Source: Paenirhodobacter ferrireducens (GTDB lineage: Bacteria; Pseudomonadota; Alphaproteobacteria; Rhodobacterales; Rhodobacteraceae). From it: a stretch of DNA of 64,000 nt. The translations under genes and the position numbers were made by a program. The notes under the pieces are model-generated. The model saw only the letters and a list, made by a program, of their open reading frames with translations, made no database searches and was not told the DNA's origin. The stretch is taken from assembly GCF_004022265.1 (NCBI RefSeq), contig NZ_SAVB01000018.1, positions 1 to 64,000 on the forward strand. Direction: 5' to 3'. This document shows, piece by piece, positions 24,327 to 39,067 of this stretch (the stretch's first letter is position 1; every line of letters begins with the position of its first letter).

Positions 24327-24339
24327 GCCGCCCGCGCCA

Positions 24340-24398
24340 TTCATCTTGCCCCAAATACCTCGGGGGGCCGAGGCCTTGCCTCGGCGGGGCAGCGCCCC
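24340..24398 (+). repeat. Dispersed box-hairpin repeat, copy 1
   Basis: The box TTCATCTTGCCCCAAATACC begins at 24340. It is followed by hairpin CCGAGGC-CTT-GCCTCGG (24368-24384) and hairpin GGGGC-AGC-GCCCC (24386-24398). It is located between the convergent ends of dapB and the DUF1674 gene and is likely transcribed in both 3' regions. Confidence 0.8.
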
Positions 24399-35331: not shown

Positions 35332-36473
35332 CGACGCTTCCCGCCCTGAACGATCCGCTGGTCCTGGCCGGGCTTGGCGGTGCGGCGCTGGTCGTCGTAC
35401 TGCTGCTCTTGGTGCTGCGCGCCGCCGGCCGCTCGGCCCGCGCGCTCGATCCGCTGGTGGCGCAGCTCACCGCGCTTGGCGGCCGGGTGCAGGCGCTCTC
35501 GGACGGGCAGCACCAGCTTGCCGGCGGGCTGCATCACGTCTCCGAGGCGCAGGCGGCAAGCCAGGCGCGGGTGCTGCAGCTGATGGAGGCGCGGCTCGCC
35601 GAGGTGAACCGGGCGATGACCGAAAGCCTGCATGGCACCGCCACCCGCACCGCGCGCTCGCTCGGCGACCTGCAGCAACGCCTTGTCGCGATCGACAAGG
35701 CACAGGCGAATATCGAGAAGCTGTCGGGCGATGTGCTGGGCCTGCAGGACATCCTGTCGAACAAGCAGACCCGCGGCGCCTTCGGCGAGATCCAGCTCCA
35801 CGACATCGTGCTGAAGGCGCTGCCCGCCGACAGCTACACGATGCAGGCGACGCTGTCGAACGGGCGGCGGGCGGATTGCCTCATCCACATGCCGAACCCG
35901 CCCGGGCCGATCGTGATCGACAGCAAGTTCCCGCTCGAAGCCTACGAGGCGCTGCGCCGCGCGAAAAGCCAAAGCGCCCTGATCGAGGCACAGCGGATGA
36001 TGCGCATCGCCGTGCGCGCCCATATCCGCGCGATCTCGGAGCGCTACATCGTGCAGGGCGAGACCGCCGACAGCGCGCTGATGTTCCTGCCCTCCGAGGC
36101 GGTCTATGCCGAGCTGCACGCGAATTTCCCAGAACTGGTGCGCGAGGGCTTTGCGGCGAAGGTCTGGATCGTCTCGCCCACCACCTGCATGGCGACGCTG
36201 CACACCATGCGCGCGGTGCTGAAGGATGCGCGGATGCGCGAGCAGGCCGGCGCGATCCGACAGGAGCTGGCCGCGCTCTACGCCGACATCGACCGGCTCG
36301 GCCAGCGCGTGGGCAACCTCGACCGCCATTTCTCGCAGGCCGCGAAGGACATCGAGGAGATCCGGATCTCCGCCGACAAGGCCGGAAAACGCGCGCATCG
36401 GCTCGACAATTTCGACTTCGAGGAGCTTGCCCCCGGCGCTGATGTGACGCGCCCCCCGGGGCTGCTGCCCTGA
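35328..36473 (+). CDS. rmuC: RmuC family DNA recombination protein
   Basis: 381 residues. One N-terminal membrane segment (about 10-30) is followed by a coiled coil (about 45-130). The RmuC nuclease-like domain then has NKQTRGAFGEIQLHDIV, DSKFPLEAYEAL and FLPSEAVYAELH. It limits recombination between inverted repeats in E. coli; the mechanism is unclear. The ATG overlaps the mutL stop (ATGA), linking it to mismatch repair. Confidence 0.93.
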   Translation: MTTLPALNDPLVLAGLGGAALVVVLLLLVLRAAGRSARALDPLVAQLTALGGRVQALSDGQHQLAGGLHHVSEAQAASQARVLQLMEARLAEVNRAMTESLHGTATRTARSLGDLQQRLVAIDKAQANIEKLSGDVLGLQDILSNKQTRGAFGEIQLHDIVLKALPADSYTMQATLSNGRRADCLIHMPNPPGPIVIDSKFPLEAYEALRRAKSQSALIEAQRMMRIAVRAHIRAISERYIVQGETADSALMFLPSEAVYAELHANFPELVREGFAAKVWIVSPTTCMATLHTMRAVLKDARMREQAGAIRQELAALYADIDRLGQRVGNLDRHFSQAAKDIEEIRISADKAGKRAHRLDNFDFEELAPGADVTRPPGLLP

Positions 36474-36533
36474 CAGATGCGCCTTGCGCCCGCCGCCGTC
36501 TGGGGCGACACTGCAAGACCACAGGAGGTCTCC

Positions 36534-36881
36534 ATGCAGCTGCCGATCAGCCCGTCCAAAGTCGCCCATGTCATCATTCGCGCCCGCAAGTTCGACGCCG
36601 ACATTCCCGGCTCGGGCCAGGGCCGCGAGCTGCGCGCCTTCATCGCGTCGCTGAACGAGGATGAGCAGGCGGCGCTGACCGCGATCATGTGGATCGGCCG
36701 CGAGACCTTCGACGCGAGCGAATTCGACGAGGCCTGGCGGACCGCCCGGGAAGAGGCGAGCGCACCGACCGAGGATTACCTGCTCGGCGTGCCGATGCTG
36801 GCCGATTACCTCGAAGACGGCCTGAACGCGCTCGATATCAGCCTCGAGGAAGCCGAGGACGGCATCGACCCCTCCGTCTGA
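36534..36881 (+). CDS. DUF3775 domain-containing protein
   Basis: 115-residue acidic, helical protein with the DUF3775 pattern: VAHVIIRARKFDADIPG (10-26), LNEDEQAALTAIMWIGRETF and LLGVPMLADYLEDGLNALDIS. The function is unknown. ATG 36534 has CAGGAGGTCTCC before it. It is 60 bp after rmuC and is followed by an inverted pair of dispersed repeats. Confidence 0.88.
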   Translation: MQLPISPSKVAHVIIRARKFDADIPGSGQGRELRAFIASLNEDEQAALTAIMWIGRETFDASEFDEAWRTAREEASAPTEDYLLGVPMLADYLEDGLNALDISLEEAEDGIDPSV

Positions 36882-36890
36882 ACGCGGATC

Positions 36891-37014
36891 GAGGGGCGCT
36901 GCCCCTCTTCGCCTGCGGCGAATTCACCCCGAGGTATTTGCGGCAAGATGAAAGACCATTTTTTTCATCTTGCCACAAATACCTCACGGGGGTGCGGGGG
37001 TGTGAAACCCCCGC
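36891..37014. repeat. Dispersed repeat copies 2 and 3, inverted pair
   Basis: Copy 2, on the minus strand, has hairpin GGGGC-AGC-GCCCC (36891-36907 with flanks) and the box at 36927-36954. Copy 3, on the plus strand, has the box at about 36963-36991 and hairpin GCGGGGG-TGTGAAA-CCCCCGC (36994-37014). The two boxes form arms of about 23 nt with one mismatch and a loop of about 10 nt including TTTTTTT, so any transcript here can fold into a long hairpin. It lies between convergent DUF3775 and response-regulator genes and may serve as a terminator for both. Confidence 0.85.
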
Positions 37015-37023
37015 CCTCATCGC

Positions 37024-37710
37024 TTACGCCACCAGCCGGTAGCCACCCGATTCCGTCACCAGAAGGCGCGCATTCTGCGGATCGGGCTCAATCTTCTGCC
37101 GCAGCCGGTAGATGTGGGTTTCAAGCGTGTGGGTGGTGACCCCGGCGTTATAGCCCCAGACCTCGTGCAGCAGCACATCGCGCGGCACCACGCCATCGGT
37201 GGCGCGGTAGAGGAACTTGAGGATGTTGGTTTCCTTCTCGGTCAGCCGGATCTTGCGGTCCTTGGCGTCGACCAGCATCTTCATCGCCGGCTTGAACGTA
37301 TACGGCCCAAGCTGGAACACAGCGTCTTCCGACTGCTCATGCGTGCGCAGCTGCGCGCGCAGACGCGCCAGAAGCACCGGGAACTTGAACGGCTTCGTCA
37401 CGTAGTCGTTGGCGCCACTGTCGAGGCCAAGGATGGTATCGGCATCGGTGTCATGCCCGGTCAGCATCACGATCGGGCATTTCACCCCCTGCTTGCGCAG
37501 TTTCTTGCACAGCTCGCGCCCGTCGGTGTCGGGCAGGCCGACATCCAGCACCACGAGATCATAGAGCGCTTCCTTCGCCTTCTCCACCGCCTCGGCGCCC
37601 GAGCCCGCCTCGTACACCTCGAAATCCTCGGTGGCGACCAGCTGTTCGGCCAGCGCCTCGCGCAGATCGGTATCGTCGTCCACCAGAAGGATCTTTTTCA
37701 GTCCAGCCAT
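37024..37710 (-). CDS. OmpR-family response regulator, probable CenR
   Basis: 228 residues. The receiver domain (6-120) has the acidic pocket DDD near 11-13, phospho-acceptor D in VVLDVGLPDTDG near 56 and K in VTKPFKFP near 107. A winged-helix DNA-binding domain follows (130-228), ending THTLETHIYRLRQKIEPDPQNARLLVTESGGYRLVA. The sequence closely matches my memory of CenR, an essential cell-envelope regulator of alphaproteobacteria. That name is inference, and no partner kinase is adjacent. ATG 37710 has GGAGGCCCGAACAAG upstream. The upstream in-frame TTG at 37755 is less likely. Confidence 0.9.
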   Translation of the reverse strand: MAGLKKILLVDDDTDLREALAEQLVATEDFEVYEAGSGAEAVEKAKEALYDLVVLDVGLPDTDGRELCKKLRKQGVKCPIVMLTGHDTDADTILGLDSGANDYVTKPFKFPVLLARLRAQLRTHEQSEDAVFQLGPYTFKPAMKMLVDAKDRKIRLTEKETNILKFLYRATDGVVPRDVLLHEVWGYNAGVTTHTLETHIYRLRQKIEPDPQNARLLVTESGGYRLVA

Positions 37711-37867
37711 CTTGTTCGGGCCTCCGTTTCTGTCGGTGTCCTGCGTTCGGTGCAAAGCTGATACCCGATCACGCGCACGGCAAGGGGCGTGAAATCTTTC
37801 TCACGCGCTCGTGTCGCAGCACCGCGCCATGTTTCAATTTGTTTCAGGCATCGCTATCTCTTGGGCC

Positions 37868-38944
37868 ATGATGACGCCCTTCTCCCTTGGCCCGACGGCC
37901 GCCGAACGCCTGAACCGTGCCCGCGCCGACCTGCGCATGGGCCTGCCCGTGGTGCTGTCGGGGCAGCTTGCCGTGGCGATCGAGACACTGAGCCCCGAGC
38001 GGCTGGCGGCGCTTGCCACCCTCGGCCCGCTCACTCTCGCGATCACCTCCTGGCGCGCCGAGACGCTGAAGGCCCGCGTCTATGACAATGACCTCGCCCG
38101 GATCGTGGTGCCCAAGGACGCCGATCTTGCCTGGCTGCGGGCGATCGCCGATCCGGCCGACGACCTGCGCATGCCGATGAAGGGCCCGCTCGCCAGCCGG
38201 CGCGAGGGCGACGCCACCCTTGCCCGCGCTGCGATCGCGCTGGCGAAAACCTCGCAGCTGCTGCCCGCGGCGCTGCTCGCCCCCCTTCCCGATCCGGCAC
38301 CCGAGGGGCTGACCACGCTCGACGCCACCGAAGTGCTGCGCGAGATCTCGGCCGCCGCGGTGCTCGCCCCGGTCTCGGCCGCCCGCGTGCCGATGCGCGC
38401 CGCGGAAAAAGGCCGGCTCCACATCTTCCGCCCCGACGACGGCGGCGAGGAGCATTACGCCGTCGAAATCGGCTCGCCCGACCGGTCCGAGCCGGTGCTC
38501 GCCCGGCTGCATTCGGCCTGCTTCACCGGCGACGTCCTCGGCTCGCTGAAATGCGACTGCGGGCCCCAGCTTGACGCCGCGCTGACGCAGATGGGGCACG
38601 AGGGGGCGGGGATCCTGCTCTACCTCAATCAGGAGGGGCGCGGCATCGGCCTGGCCAACAAGATGCGTGCCTATGACCTGCAGGATCAGGGCTTCGACAC
38701 CGTCGAGGCGAACCACCGCCTCGGGTTCGAGGATGACGAGCGCGACTTCCGCATCGGCGCGGCGCTGCTGAAGAAGCTCGGCTTCTCCAAGGTGCGGCTG
38801 CTGACCAACAACCCGGCCAAGGTGCGGATGCTCGAGGCGAACGGCATCGAGGTGGTCGAGCGGGTGCCGCTGAAGGTCGGGCTCAGTCGCCACAACGCCG
38901 CCTATCTGGCAACGAAGGCGGCGAAGTCGGGCCACATCCTGTAA
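37868..38944 (+). CDS. ribA: GTP cyclohydrolase II with N-terminal extension
   Basis: 358 residues. The C-terminal about 200 form GTP cyclohydrolase II, the first step of riboflavin synthesis. The zinc cysteines are in [42 protein letters not shown] lies in the catalytic region and [16 protein letters not shown] follows. The first about 150 residues match neither RibA nor an obviously intact RibB (DHBP synthase) active site. ATG 37868 and ATG 37871 are equal candidates. It is transcribed divergently from the response regulator. Confidence 0.92.
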
Positions 38945-39021: not shown

Positions 39022-39067
39022 CTTTCATCTTGGTAAAAATACCTCGGGGTCCGGGGCAGCGCCCCGG
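39022..39067 (+). repeat. Dispersed box-hairpin repeat, copy 4
   Basis: The box TTTCATCTTGGTAAAAATAC begins at about 39023. It is followed by CCGGGGC-AGC-GCCCCGG (39051-39067). It lies between convergent ribA and the YggS-family gene. Confidence 0.8.

Follow-up and report, generated by a model that had tools for sequence, protein, structure and literature searches.

Intercistronic stabilising hairpins, such as those of the puf operon of Rhodobacter capsulatus, are GC hairpins located behind a gene, where they are thought to stop 3'-to-5' decay. The CGTC-tagged REPs of Alphaproteobacteria have stems of 8–9 bp that start with A/T pairs, loops of 4–5 nt and a CCA tail, as described in PMC3733652. 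The element considered here is a short gene-end element present in more than 100 copies in the genome, with lineage-specific spellings across Rhodobacteraceae. It is illustrated by a long stem-loop located in a window (the whole stretch of 64,000 nucleotides that was analysed). This stem-loop consists of two copies of the unit lying tail to tail, which may well form a REP/REPIN-like hairpin at mRNA 3' ends that has no RAYT and that would protect or delimit these ends.

The stem-loop is located between two converging genes, as proposed in an earlier sequence-only reading and established here by domain matches and strands: a DUF3775 gene on the plus strand (36534–36881; PF12616, 107 bits), the 3' end of which bears the left unit, and an OmpR-type response regulator gene on the minus strand (37024–37710; Response_reg PF00072 and Trans_reg_C PF00486), the 3' end of which bears the right unit. 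The regulator was named CenR-like in that reading, a putative name examined here through its domains and orthologous loci. The left unit begins with a GC hairpin, GAGGGGCGC-TGCCCCTC (36891–36907, plus strand), which is apparent from the sequence and the fold and occupies the same position in other copies, followed by a second hairpin, TTCGCC-TGC-GGCGAA (36908–36922, plus strand), supported by sequence, fold and many copies. A C-run adjoins the left box (36927–36930, plus strand); it is CCCC here and CCCCC in most copies, as judged from the copy alignment and the comparison with the close relative G011. The left 23-bp box, GAGGTATTT-GC-GGCAAGATGAAA (36931–36953, plus strand), and the right 23-bp box (36963–36985), which reads GAGGTATTT-GT-GGCAAGATGAAA on the minus strand, were both identified from the sequence, genome-wide matches and the copy alignment, and they enclose a 9-nt loop, GACCATTTT (36954–36962), read directly from the sequence. 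A G-run (36988–36992), corresponding to the C-run of the minus-strand unit, is visible in the sequence and the copy alignment and would lengthen the stem in most box pairs. The GC hairpin of the right unit, GCGGGGG...CCCCCGC (36994–37014, minus strand; sequence and fold), is retained here in several congeneric species. The head-to-head boxes and long stem-loop noticed earlier are real: the 23-nt arms pair at 22 of 23 positions (96%, one mismatch), and the 144-nt region from 36880 to 37023 folds as RNA at -85.6 kcal/mol, whereas 200 dinucleotide shuffles of it give -48.8 (sd 4.1; z -8.9). The window contains four box copies, and the shuffles none. The other two are single unit boxes on the minus strand, one between convergent genes (24339–24361; box matches, gene calls, copy alignment) and one between the convergent genes for GTP cyclohydrolase II and an alanine-racemase-N (YggS-like) protein (39023–39045; box matches, gene calls, domains, alignment), and each stands behind a gene end, as at the DUF3775 site.

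The complete unit comprises one or two GC hairpins followed by the C-run and, after it, a box in two parts, GAGGTATTT-NN-GGCAAG(nn)GAAA, usually 37–52 nt past a stop codon. The box had previously been taken as the repeat itself; it does recur, but it is merely the outer part of this larger unit. With up to three mismatches, it matches 128 times in the 4.07-Mb genome, and the reversed pattern does not match at all. The alignment comprises 102 copies, from 108 in the fetched loci and the window, six weaker ones having been dropped; about 28 of the 128 genome matches lie outside it, and the figures that follow hold among the matches listed. Across the aligned copies the box is nearly uniform: positions 9–10 (counted from 0) are free, positions 17–18 are of few types (AT, GA, GC, AA) and the remainder are almost invariant. 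The C-run almost always lies directly before the box, with a C in 84–97 of the 102 copies across its five positions, and further upstream nearly all the copies listed have one GC hairpin or two, for example GGGGGCGCTGCCCCC. Many copies are faced by another box that has diverged more (GGGATATTT..CAATTGGAAG or GGAGTATTT..), and the dialects GAGGTATTT, GGGATATTT and GGAGTATTT are found side by side in one genome. At L013 (1488–1523), L026 (minus strand) and L058 (near 1473), CTCCGGCG replaces the C-run, and the CCTCC of this variant is able to pair with the GGAGG of the box. At L020, L019 and similar loci, some box pairs loop around a GC hairpin flanked by GAAA and TTTC, in a terminator-like arrangement.

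Gene contexts come from a gene caller that uses codon usage and was trained on the window. The 88 sites divide into 36 convergent, 42 codirectional and 2 divergent ones and 8 of other kinds, of which 5 were called inside genes and 3 are at contig ends, against a window background, for intergenic gaps of at least 40 nt, of 6 convergent, 24 codirectional and 11 divergent. As for REPs, placement is extragenic and downstream of genes (80 of the 88 sites lie between two called genes) and dimers are common. The box begins at a median of 46 nt past the stop codon of the same-direction gene (n=61). Of the single codirectional units, 20 read in the direction of the genes and 13 in the opposite one. The intergenic gap is shorter than 130 nt at 18 of the 42 codirectional sites, and single units account for 17 of the 18. 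The further inverted pairs expected elsewhere in the genome do exist, at 20 of the 88 sites by a strict pattern and, when the partner criterion is relaxed, for 48 of 91 copies. These "paired boxes" are mostly two gene-end units that meet, rather than one paired mobile element. The inverted boxes of L026/L027 (G000:C49:157215-157403) lie about 143 nt apart, much wider than the usual pairs, and possibly represent a small compound insertion. Units are also carried on plasmids: between an ABC transporter gene and the convergent purU in Sagittula sp. P11, between two xanthine dehydrogenase subunit genes in Ruegeria sp. AD91A, and between gap and fba, inside the cbb operon, in Cereibacter azotoformans and the model organism Cereibacter (Rhodobacter) sphaeroides.

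The location at convergent gene ends and the stable hairpin formed by the paired boxes would suit an ordinary bidirectional intrinsic terminator, repeated by chance; some copies adjoin T-tailed hairpins, and hairpins with short T-runs take the place of the unit in relatives. However, no T-tract or U-tract directly follows the stem, which continues as ACGGGGG on the plus strand and GGGGTGAA on the minus strand, and a terminator scan of 36000–38000 returned no site. The sequence is also conserved beyond the needs of a stem. A plain terminator is improbable because single units occur in tight codirectional gaps, including that of the Cereibacter cbb operon, where efficient termination would silence the downstream genes. 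T-tailed terminators showed no scarcity beside the box, being found in 11 of 36 convergent gaps with a box and in 2 of 8 without, a control far too small to judge whether the two exclude each other. A search of 36400–37500 against Rfam gave no match above the gathering threshold; there were 18 sub-threshold matches, and the ones that overlie the stem were largely to microRNA models of eukaryotes, which is usual for a long stem.

Neisseria and Haemophilus reuse signals for DNA uptake (USS/DUS) in their terminators, and a signal of this type was also considered, given that gene-end inverted pairs and between-species dialects resemble the DUS/USS hairpins described in PMC1852404. This explanation is very improbable: there are 128 matches here, against at least 1,000 copies for a USS as defined in that paper, only 5 of the 88 sites were called inside genes, whereas many USS lie in genes, and the position is fixed about 46 nt past stop codons.

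Sequence conservation was assessed against G011, the flanks of which have about 95% DNA identity, for a set of 103 copies with up to two mismatches. The same place is occupied in G011 for 91 of the 103, and for the other 12 the G011 stretches compared contain no partner, although these copies may still be present in G011. In the 91 copies, the 21 box positions show 56 changes in 1911 sites (2.9%), a lower bound for the box, since copies were picked by the box pattern and its conservation is biased upwards; the comparison for the NN spacer, with 43 changes in 182 sites (23.6%), is unaffected by this. The C-run shows 2 changes in 455 sites, fourfold sites 1861 in 16995 (11.0%) and other intergenic bases 880 in 10063. 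The box is under purifying selection, evolving about four times more slowly than fourfold sites, and the NN spacer is not. Single boxes are conserved as well as paired ones, so pairing alone leaves the conserved sequence unexplained. The NN spacer had changed in 31 of all 91 copies (p 0.002 against fourfold sites), 19 of 48 paired copies (p 0.002) and 12 of 43 singles (p 0.16). We do not claim it as a hypermutable cleavage or recombination dinucleotide, as the excess does not hold for singles by themselves and loci at which NN has changed carry more changes in their flanks too (9.3 against 4.8 per copy).

At four orthologous convergent sites, each with 17–18 genomes of the genus having the gene, the spacer varies between a unit pair, a single unit, a classical terminator and hardly any sequence at all. 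Six of the 16 genomes in which the site between the DUF3775 and regulator genes was located have a pair (G000, which contains the window, G011, G012, G010, G015 and G009); the right unit stands alone in G008 and G004, and G006, G007, G002 and G017 lack the box and have hairpins with short T-runs instead. The spelling before TATTT varies between species (GAGG, GGGA, GGCG, GGAG), as do the inner halves, and both arms change together. Arms were closer to complementary to their own partners than to arms from other species at the three sites compared, with 21.3 against 17.4 of 23 positions at the first (n=6, permutation p 0.018), 20.4 against 18.3 at the second (n=8, p 0.006) and 19.1 against 17.8 at the third (n=8, p 0.002). 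This test covers the genomes with a located gene end (2 of 18 lacked one for DUF3775, 3 of 17 for panC and 1 of 18 for algH) and in-register pairs, and it leaves out one gshA contig end and the whole gshA site, which has only two pairs; at panC, G014, G001 and G013 were scored as left unit only despite a visible partner. At the algH site, G009 and G010 have the same loop and differ at two GAGG/GGGA positions, and the other arm has changed to match. Such co-variation supports a paired structure, although template switching between quasi-palindromic arms could give the same result without function.

The bipartite motif, with its spacer fixed in length but unconstrained, the conservation of single copies and the genome-specific dialects that retain the architecture might instead reflect a recognition site in DNA (or RNA), at which a putative protein would read GAGGTATTT and GGCAAGxxGAAA over the 2-bp spacer, as a road-block between gene ends or a nucleoid site, for example, to which the hairpins would be secondary. 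We consider this rather doubtful: the co-variation of paired arms, together with the GC hairpins beside them, speaks for RNA structure, the presence of three dialects in one genome means that a single reader must be tolerant, and no candidate protein has been identified.

The regulator side of this site has a further feature in relatives. The Rfam sRNA SorX (RF02784) was found just behind the regulator gene in all five of the named relatives tested (L098, L108, L127, L150 and L164, of 80 loci), with scores of 75–86 bits for a cut-off of 46.6; the corresponding site here, 36986–37023, 3' of the OmpR-type regulator gene, has the repeat pair where these relatives carry SorX. A scan of L091, L092 and L096 at a looser threshold gave one SorX match (L092), below the cut-off, and a text motif for the SorX region was present in 44 of the 80 loci, an undercount, as it misses three of the five Rfam-positive loci. 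This genome has no SorX match above the cut-off; the best, of 38.4 bits, is elsewhere, at L334 (1470–1551; G000:C57:21538-21599), where SorY also scores 50.4 bits, both below gathering. This stretch has a CCTCCCTGTTGGACT motif and a T-tailed hairpin, and probably encodes a related sRNA.

A selfish REP/MITE-like repeat that piles up behind genes because it is harmless there, its pairing and dialects reflecting copying rather than host function, is unlikely, but it has several observations on its side. Placement is REP-like, dimers are formed and the families are lineage-specific; the whole module is present or absent between species at the four orthologous sites, and in the box-less G006 and G007 the convergent stop codons of the algH and gshA sites are only a few bases apart. 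The proposal of a paired-inverted mobile element is supported for placement, only 2 of the 88 sites being divergent, but not for recent mobility, given the number of copies shared with G011. A box that evolves so much more slowly than fourfold sites, next to a spacer that does not, is also hard to square with decaying neutral copies. The mover predicted, a RAYT, was not found: the PF01797 (Y1_Tnp) profile has no match in this genome, with control matches in 5 of 14 genomes, and occurs in 6 of 61 family genomes, the box-rich G023, G033 and G035 being without it. An association of the repeat with a RAYT was rejected on this absence and rarity; loss of RAYTs is possible, as PMC3733652 notes, which keeps absence by itself from being conclusive. 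There is no conserved GTAG tag at the palindrome end in the 102 aligned copies. The units also do not show the combination of CGTC/TGTC/CCTC tag, 8–9-bp stem starting with A/T pairs, 4–5-nt loop and CCA tail that defines CGTC-tagged REPs in that paper: unit hairpins such as GGGGGC-GCT-GCCCCC have no A/T at their base and precede the C-run and box, although a CCTC is present at the edge of the box.

A role at mRNA 3' ends is favoured because the arms co-vary, GC hairpins accompany the box and units are exchanged with terminators. The element would then act in the RNA, as a structure at the 3' end. Transcription termination, probably Rho-dependent, or read-through would precede trimming, and 3'-to-5' trimming would halt at the hairpin or hairpins, leaving a stable, defined mRNA end. 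For convergent genes, one long stem could serve both mRNAs and hinder read-through; inside operons, a single unit could set different stabilities for the flanking cistrons. There is room for a sequence-specific reader, because single boxes are conserved. A broader and speculative possibility, to which we attach little weight, is a family-wide system of 3'-end signalling, in which a lineage-spelled bipartite 9+2+12-bp box following GC hairpins would be read by a co-evolving dedicated factor setting mRNA ends, and the 2-bp spacer, chiefly that of pairs, would be rewritten no more slowly than neutral sites change, by template switching or copy-to-copy conversion, such that arms and dialects change together.

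The generic core CCCCNGRRGTATTT was found in 91 of 149 family genomes, with the reversed control in 14 of 149. Much of the genus and some genomes of the family carry the original box pattern in abundance; in other families of the class it is near the control level. No earlier description of the repeat was found in the literature searched, in which subscription journals are thinly covered. Its spellings shift rapidly and its architecture stays, providing a natural experiment on the definition of mRNA 3' ends in Rhodobacteraceae, and it also bears on how RAYT-free REP-like repeats persist.

Like REP/BIME elements and REPINs, this is a short repeat at gene ends that avoids divergent promoters and falls into lineage-specific families, and its inverted dimers form one large stem-loop. 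REPs and REPINs have a GTAG tag and a RAYT, whereas the repeat has neither in this genome; the REP core is a short imperfect hairpin, and the core here is an unpaired box beside a GC hairpin. Unlike those of REPs and REPINs, its copies are fixed between close species. It shares with the CGTC-tagged REPs, as described in PMC3733652, an alphaproteobacterial host, the lack of a dedicated transposase, head-to-head dimers and gene-end placement, but differs in its GC-only hairpins, C-run and 23-bp box. In the USS/DUS terminators of Neisseria and Pasteurellaceae, as presented in PMC1852404, an inverted genome-wide word likewise forms hairpins between convergent genes and varies by lineage; the repeat has about ten-fold fewer copies, almost none in genes, and no T-tail. 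The puf hairpins, too, are GC hairpins that lie behind a gene, in a bacterium of the same family, but hairpins of the puf type are locus-specific, whereas this element is repeated in more than 100 places.
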